A stretch of DNA of 64,000 bases, from assembly GCF_001753165.1 (NCBI RefSeq), contig NZ_CP017448.1:1-64000 (forward strand), written 5' to 3'. A model generated the notes under the pieces. The model was given only the letters and a program-made list of their open reading frames with translations, did no database searches and was not told where the DNA came from. The stretch comes from Acidihalobacter aeolianus. GTDB taxonomy: Bacteria > Pseudomonadota > Gammaproteobacteria > DSM-5130 > Acidihalobacteraceae. A program made the position numbers and the translations under genes. Of this stretch, positions 10,602-11,376 are shown piece after piece. Every line of letters starts with the position of its first letter. Positions within the stretch are counted from its first letter, which is position 1.

Positions 10602-10754
10602 ATGGATATGCGCCGTCTTGGATTGAGTCTAACTGGCATTTGGCTTGTATTGGTCGGGTTAAGTGCTCTTATACACATTCGTTTTGAGTACCGAGAGGTC
10701 TTAATGAGTGCATTGGCATTGGTGGCTGGCGTGCTTCTTATCGTACAATGTTAG
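10602..10754 (+). CDS. Small two-helix membrane protein, 50 residues
   Basis: This short gene encodes two hydrophobic segments. The first runs LGLSLTGIWLVLVGLSAL (about residues 6-23), then there is a charged loop with FEYRE, and the second runs LMSALALVAGVLLIV (about 34-48). It ends VQC. A good ribosome binding site (AAGAAGGA, ending at 10600) precedes ATG 10602, with a second ATG at 10608. The pattern resembles very small uncharacterised membrane proteins that are common in Gammaproteobacteria, but I cannot assign a function. It sits between ubiD and the riboswitch. Confidence 0.65.
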   Translation: MDMRRLGLSLTGIWLVLVGLSALIHIRFEYREVLMSALALVAGVLLIVQC

Positions 10755-10835
10755 GATTACCTTCTGTCTGCTGTTCTATGCCATTTGTCTAAAGTCTTGC
10801 CTAAACCTGCAAGATTCGCATAACATCCATACTTG

Positions 10836-10920
10836 AGATAAGGGCAAAATCGTCGAAAGACGATGGCGCAAAGCCAAGGGTCTAAAGCCGTAAGGCCATG
10901 ACAGCCGGTTGCCGCAACCG
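10836..10920 (+). promoter_or_regulatory. c-di-GMP-I (GEMM) riboswitch
   Basis: The aptamer core is recognisable. AGGGCAAA at 10841-10848 leads into a perfect 6-bp helix ATCGTC/GACGAT (10849-10864) closed by a GAAA tetraloop, then GGCGCAAAGCC (tetraloop receptor side), a second arm containing TCTAAAGCC, and GCCGGTTGCCG closing the core. AGGGCAAA matches the well-studied Vibrio Vc2 aptamer, which favours c-di-GMP over cGAMP. A perfect 8-bp hairpin ACCGAGAC/GTCTCGGT follows at 10917-10935 without a U-run. A second hairpin at 10996-11019 touches the ribosome binding site of the next gene, so control of translation is plausible. A possible promoter is TTGCCT (10797-10802) with TAACAT (10821-10826). 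Apart from this, 10755-11031 holds no gene. Confidence 0.88.
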
Positions 10921-11031
10921 AGACAAGGTCTCGGTGCGATTCATGCGATGACTACTATTACGGGTGGTGTCCATGCTGCATGGCAGTGCCGAAGACTCGA
11001 ACCTATAAGCTAGGTCGAGAGGGATTCAACT

Positions 11032-11376
11032 ATGAAACTGCACAATGCCATAGGTTCGCTAGCGGTGGGGGTAGTGGTATCATTTCCGGCATTGGCAATA
11101 GCTAATACACAGTTGGATCAGCCTGAAAATAATTGTCTAACGTGGACCTTGGTTGGAAAAACCCAGCCTAATCTCGAAACGGTTCAACAATATTGGAATG
11201 CTGCCGAAGTGCAGGTCCGTAAAGCAGCCGCGTCGATTATGGCCAGCGCTCCGGCCCGTCTGGGTTTCTACCTTGGCGCAGCCAACGAACCCCCAATGTC
11301 TATTGTCGGACAAGACTTCAGGCAGGATCTTGCCGGGCGTATCAAGTATGGCTTCTACCTAGTCAGCACTTTCTGA
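11032..11376 (+). CDS. Small secreted protein of unknown function under a c-di-GMP riboswitch
   Basis: The 114-residue product starts with a clear Sec signal peptide (MKLHNAIGSLAVGVVVSFPALAIA, cleavage after ALAIA). The mature part of about 90 residues holds a single cysteine and a mixed hydrophilic sequence ending in GFYLVSTF. I recognise no domain. ATG 11032 is preceded by GAGAGGG at 11017-11023, whose first bases lie in the hairpin at 10996-11019. Because it follows a GEMM riboswitch, its expression should respond to c-di-GMP, so a role in attachment, biofilm or envelope change is a guess from context. Its 3' end overlaps the convergent transporter gene by 18 bases. Confidence 0.8.
   Translation: MKLHNAIGSLAVGVVVSFPALAIANTQLDQPENNCLTWTLVGKTQPNLETVQQYWNAAEVQVRKAAASIMASAPARLGFYLGAANEPPMSIVGQDFRQDLAGRIKYGFYLVSTF

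Follow-up and report, generated by a model that had tools for sequence, protein, structure and literature searches.

The closest described systems are class I riboswitches of the GEMM-I family. Vibrio cholerae has two class I switches, whose responses run in opposite directions (PMC6366702), and a class I switch of Bacillus thuringiensis is an ON switch for an adhesin (PMC6366702). A G20A change in GEMM-I leads to binding of cGAMP (PMC6274999), and the cGAMP-sensing RNA of the pilM type in Geobacter works through a terminator (PMC9262584).

We ran the Rfam 15 covariance models (4,227 families) over the whole 64,000-nt stretch of DNA analysed here, hereafter the window. The model RF01051 (c-di-GMP-I, GEMM-I) matched at 10833-10916 on the forward strand, covering all 87 model positions (1-87) with a score of 80.7 bits and an E-value of 2.7e-14; the only other match in the window was one tRNA. 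A reading of the locus made earlier from the sequence alone (the sequence-only reading) had recognised a GEMM-I core here and proposed RF01051 as the check, and the gathering score of 35 is far exceeded. A search of the whole host genome (3.5 Mb) found no second GEMM aptamer. Three other species carry orthologous aptamers, with scores across the four genomes of 68.7 to 83.5 bits, and both conserved GEMM-I hairpins are retained in all four. The base pairs are standard in 83 of 83 testable cells of the four-species comparison, and four pairs have changed on both sides, that is, by compensatory change. The alternative, a degenerate GEMM remnant or a chance resemblance without regulatory function, is very improbable given these compensatory changes, the 80.7-bit score, and a pairing with the downstream gene that is conserved over two genera.

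Model position 11 is a G in all four aptamers. By counting along Vc2, we take this position to correspond to G20 of that RNA; the four RNAs would then be of the c-di-GMP form rather than the G20A form that binds cGAMP. On this evidence the segment 10833-10916 is a GEMM-I riboswitch aptamer, and its predicted ligand is c-di-GMP.

Another line of evidence is the company the aptamer keeps. Our sample of the family comprised five genomes, and the order-level sample consists of the same five. A profile search found one homologue of the protein encoded downstream in each of four genomes, with E-values from 1e-73 to 1e-11, and the same four genomes each contain one GEMM aptamer, always directly upstream of the homologue's gene; in G001 the profile gave a weak second match as well (E 0.066). 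The fifth genome has neither aptamer nor protein, yet it does contain ubiD, the upstream gene in the window. From the 3' end of the aptamer to the start codon the distances are about 115 (in the window), 115, 108, and 13 nt; the last belongs to G004, a member of another genus, while the window's own genus is represented by the window species and the species of loci L003 and L004. Present side by side in four genomes and jointly absent from the fifth, the RNA and the gene behave as a linked pair. The question set beforehand, whether homologues of the protein are also preceded by GEMM RNAs, is answered positively by all four genomes that have either element, so that the proposed pairing of riboswitch and protein holds throughout.

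Outside the family, none of the other sampled Gammaproteobacteria (369 genomes in all) yielded a homologue. A further search covered 398 sampled proteobacterial genomes, a set that overlaps the 369. The one further match, in G703 (E 6.7e-4), involved only profile residues 1-74, near the N-terminus of a 468-residue frame, and was set aside as a match of signal peptide or composition. Within this sampling the protein is therefore restricted to its lineage. Searching the GTDB 220 contigs with the protein profile returned no relative, close relatives being apparently absent from that collection, and a plasmid search found nothing. Between ubiD and the riboswitch lies a small gene (10602-10754, forward strand) encoding a 50-residue membrane protein with two membrane segments, as the sequence-only reading had remarked. 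All three species of the genus have kept it, and no counterpart was seen at that position in G004; the L003 homologue has at best a sub-threshold match to DUF308.

The target gene itself, at 11032-11376 on the forward strand, encodes 114 residues. Its three homologues are 56%, 51%, and 34% identical to the window protein, and all four sequences align over their full length. The layout consists of a putative signal peptide at about residues 1-24, a variable linker at 45-75, and a conserved C-terminal core at 76-114. In the alignment we see a basic n-region followed by a hydrophobic stretch in all four homologues, together with invariant P19, A22, and A24 and AxA-like sites in each. These features fit Sec export; the protein is probably Sec-exported, in agreement with the earlier claim.

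Codon comparisons between the window and L003 differ sharply along the gene. Over the C-terminal 39 codons the two species differ at 3 first, 0 second, and 27 third positions, so that third positions account for 27 of the 30 differences, while residues 45-75 differ freely (21, 20, and 23 differences at first, second, and third positions). By this measure the reading frame is real and under purifying selection that acts unevenly along its length, and the contrast between a constrained C-terminus and a free linker indicates that the C-terminus is the functional core. The invariant residues are G78, F79, Y80, L81, G82, P87, P88, V92, G93, D95, R97, Y106, G107, Y109, L110, and the terminal F, and the 39-residue core can be summarised by the motif GFYLG-x-A-x2-PP-x-S-x-VG-x-D-x-R ... 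YG-x-YL-x2-F, with F at the very end.

Searches of Pfam, NCBIfam, PHROGs, PADLOC, and the PDB gave no profile match to the window protein at E<=1, and the PDB gave nothing at E<=10, in keeping with the initial description of a 114-residue protein lacking a recognisable domain. The L004 protein matched a PHROGs family of unknown function over 20 residues (E 0.094), which we took as chance, and an AlphaFold2 model built from the four-sequence alignment had a pLDDT of 45 and was rejected for fold search. An attachment or envelope role for the protein, as had been suggested, is a guess. More broadly, we put forward tentatively, at well under even odds, that the window protein founds a new family of exported proteins under c-di-GMP control. 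In that reading the C-terminal core would work at the outer membrane or the cell surface, the hosts would probably be iron-oxidising acidophiles, and the protein would be the only output of a very large c-di-GMP network known to be governed by a riboswitch.

Small exported proteins recur behind GEMM RNAs elsewhere. GEMM aptamers occur in 67 of the 369 sampled gammaproteobacterial genomes, and we scored the genes after some 85 other aptamers with a crude measure combining open reading frames and signal sequences. Many of these genes encode products that open with a membrane segment or a signal-like one, and small exported orphans make up several of the targets: at L025, L055, and L073, as in the window, a GEMM aptamer is followed by a protein of 109-129 residues with a signal-like start and, where scanned, no Pfam match. 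Their C-termini led us to suspect kinship with the window protein, and hmmsearch with the window-protein profile did not match them, nor did it detect a relative among the reading frames of the other GEMM loci. The L055 and L073 proteins are mutually similar exported orphans of 120-129 residues ending FEFQFKY and FEVQIKY, the latter protein having no Pfam match; L025, at the GEMM aptamer of G135, encodes a 109-residue exported orphan ending PVSIYFRATF, also with no Pfam match. The theme of a GEMM RNA before an exported protein is a common one, to which the window adds a further instance and a new target.

The survey also turned up some unusual arrangements. At L055, L073, L068, L076, and L005, which represent several gammaproteobacterial lineages, the 3' end of the aptamer abuts or nearly abuts the Shine-Dalgarno sequence (SD), for example GGUUGCCAGGAUGAACAUG; this compact layout looks like direct translational control. 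One genome, G170, contains 11 GEMM aptamers, and tandem aptamers about 220 nt apart were seen at G277:C7:719338-719649 and G058:C36:975-1279.

Upstream of the aptamer in the window is a putative promoter, TTGCCT-N18-TAACAT (10797-10826, forward strand), with its -35 hexamer at 10797-10802 and its -10 hexamer at 10821-10826. All three species of the genus have TTGCCW and TAACAT set 18 nt apart; TAACATCCATA is invariant in the three-species leader alignment, as is CCATA after TAACAT. A sigma-70 scan did not include 10797-10826 among its matches. The conserved hexamers are likely a promoter, and the predicted transcription start would then fall at about 10831-10836, at the 5' edge of the aptamer.

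Two hairpins separate the aptamer from the gene, both of which the sequence-only reading had described. Directly after the aptamer, at 10917-10935 on the forward strand, an 8-bp hairpin (ACCGAGAC-AAG-GUCUCGGU) is present with a z-score of -4.2, and none of 200 shuffles was as stable. L003 and L004 each have a hairpin of other sequence in that position (z -3.3 and z -1.9, respectively); the place is kept and the sequence is not. The second hairpin, CUCGAACCUA-UAAGC-UAGGUCGAG at 10996-11019 (forward strand), is likewise present and, folded with its flanks, mildly exceeds chance in shuffles (z -1.7). The SD, GAGAGGG at 11017-11023 on the forward strand, begins within the 3' strand of this hairpin; at the same place L003 has GAGAGAG and L004 has GAGGGAG. 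Comparable hairpins lie beside or over the SD in all three species (CUCGA...UCGAG, CUC...GAG, and CUCCCU...AGGGAG). The AGACUC arm at 10993-10998 (forward strand), which supplies the 5' strand of the SD hairpin, is a candidate switching strand. By duplex energy, no other stretch of the leader pairs better with the aptamer's GGG(G)UCU strand than this arm (AGACUC, AGACUCC, or GACUCC) in any of the three species, at -8.1, -11.6, and -11.6 kcal/mol.

We found no intrinsic terminator between the aptamer and the gene. Since a terminator is lacking and an SD hairpin recurs in three species, control of translation is the most likely mode. The arrangement in G004 also indicates translational control: 13 nt separate the end of the aptamer from the AUG, and pairing is possible between the start codon and the 5' flank of the aptamer (UUAUGA/UCAUGA). 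Instead of working at the SD, control might affect how far the transcript is elongated or how stable it is, through Rho-dependent termination or RNase access within the 115-nt leader, for instance. This would suit a post-aptamer hairpin conserved in place and not in sequence, and it would fit the outcome of static folding, in which constrained partition functions showed the SD about equally exposed, with no clear difference, in the free and the aptamer-formed ensembles. The missing terminator and the scant room that the G004 spacing leaves for anything except translational control make it unlikely. We give a probability of about 0.72 to the reading that this is a c-di-GMP riboswitch controlling the gene at the level of translation. 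By the same folding result, in which its accessibility did not depend on the aptamer, the SD hairpin is no more than a plausible switching element.

The direction of control is harder to call. When the arm was made to pair with the aptamer, at a cost of 1.0-5.2 kcal/mol, exposure of the SD rose from 0.53 to 0.76 in the window and from 0.33 to 0.67 in L004; the SD was not freed in L003. This gain in two of three species weakly indicates an OFF switch, bearing in mind that the G-rich aptamer strand pairs with most anti-SD arms and that the related leaders are not independent. An ON switch, in which the same riboswitch and c-di-GMP would raise production of the same protein, is a serious competitor that we place somewhat below even odds: the opposed V. 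cholerae pair and the B. thuringiensis adhesin switch provide precedent (PMC6366702), and the many other gammaproteobacterial GEMMs before signal-like starts would suit an ON response in the sessile state. The leader, however, has no structural element favouring ON over OFF, and constrained folding is neutral between them. We lean slightly toward OFF.

Under translational OFF control, the region would form a self-contained c-di-GMP output unit. The upstream promoter would start an mRNA in which the GEMM-I aptamer comes first among the structured elements. Without ligand, the aptamer strand GGGUCU would pair with the GACUC arm and the SD would stay free. Binding of c-di-GMP would lock the aptamer's two hairpins and alter ribosome access to the SD, the released GACUC arm closing over it and shutting off synthesis of a small, probably Sec-exported protein limited to this family.

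The host appears well equipped to supply the signal. Its genome has 57 GGDEF matches, some of them pieces of one gene, corresponding to about 50 genes, and six PilZ matches; from these the host very probably makes c-di-GMP. As first proposed, c-di-GMP very probably has this protein as one of its outputs, a strong inference given that the aptamer-gene pairing is kept in four related species. The host genome also encodes two rusticyanin-like proteins (G000:C1:419134-419562 and 1972915-1973295), which score 131 bits, below the curated cut-off of 146.7, and hint at iron oxidation in the host. Two reports on Acidithiobacillus describe effects of c-di-GMP on adherence and biofilm (PMC4331095, PMC5852609). 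If the present lineage consists, as suspected, of acidophilic iron oxidisers, the adherent or biofilm life style has in this protein a concrete candidate that is easy to test.

The regulatory principle is well known, and the target protein is unstudied: an unannotated exported protein is here tied to a defined signal, and the genome concerned has only one GEMM RNA beside its roughly 50 GGDEF proteins. Compared with Vc1 and Vc2 of V. cholerae (RF01051), the window RNA shares the full-length aptamer match, both hairpins, the GAAA tetraloop, a position in the 5' leader, the c-di-GMP-type base at the position mapped to G20, and, as in the V. cholerae switches, a leader with no terminator. The cGAMP-sensing GEMM-I RNAs of Geobacter (pilM type) belong to the same aptamer family and have another cognate ligand, favoured by G20A (PMC6274999), where each of the four RNAs studied here has G; and pilM works through a terminator (PMC9262584), which the window leader lacks. 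Unlike Vc1 and Vc2, the window RNA would control a family-restricted orphan exported protein, is present in a single copy amid those GGDEF proteins, and is joined to its gene by a 115-nt leader with hairpins of its own.
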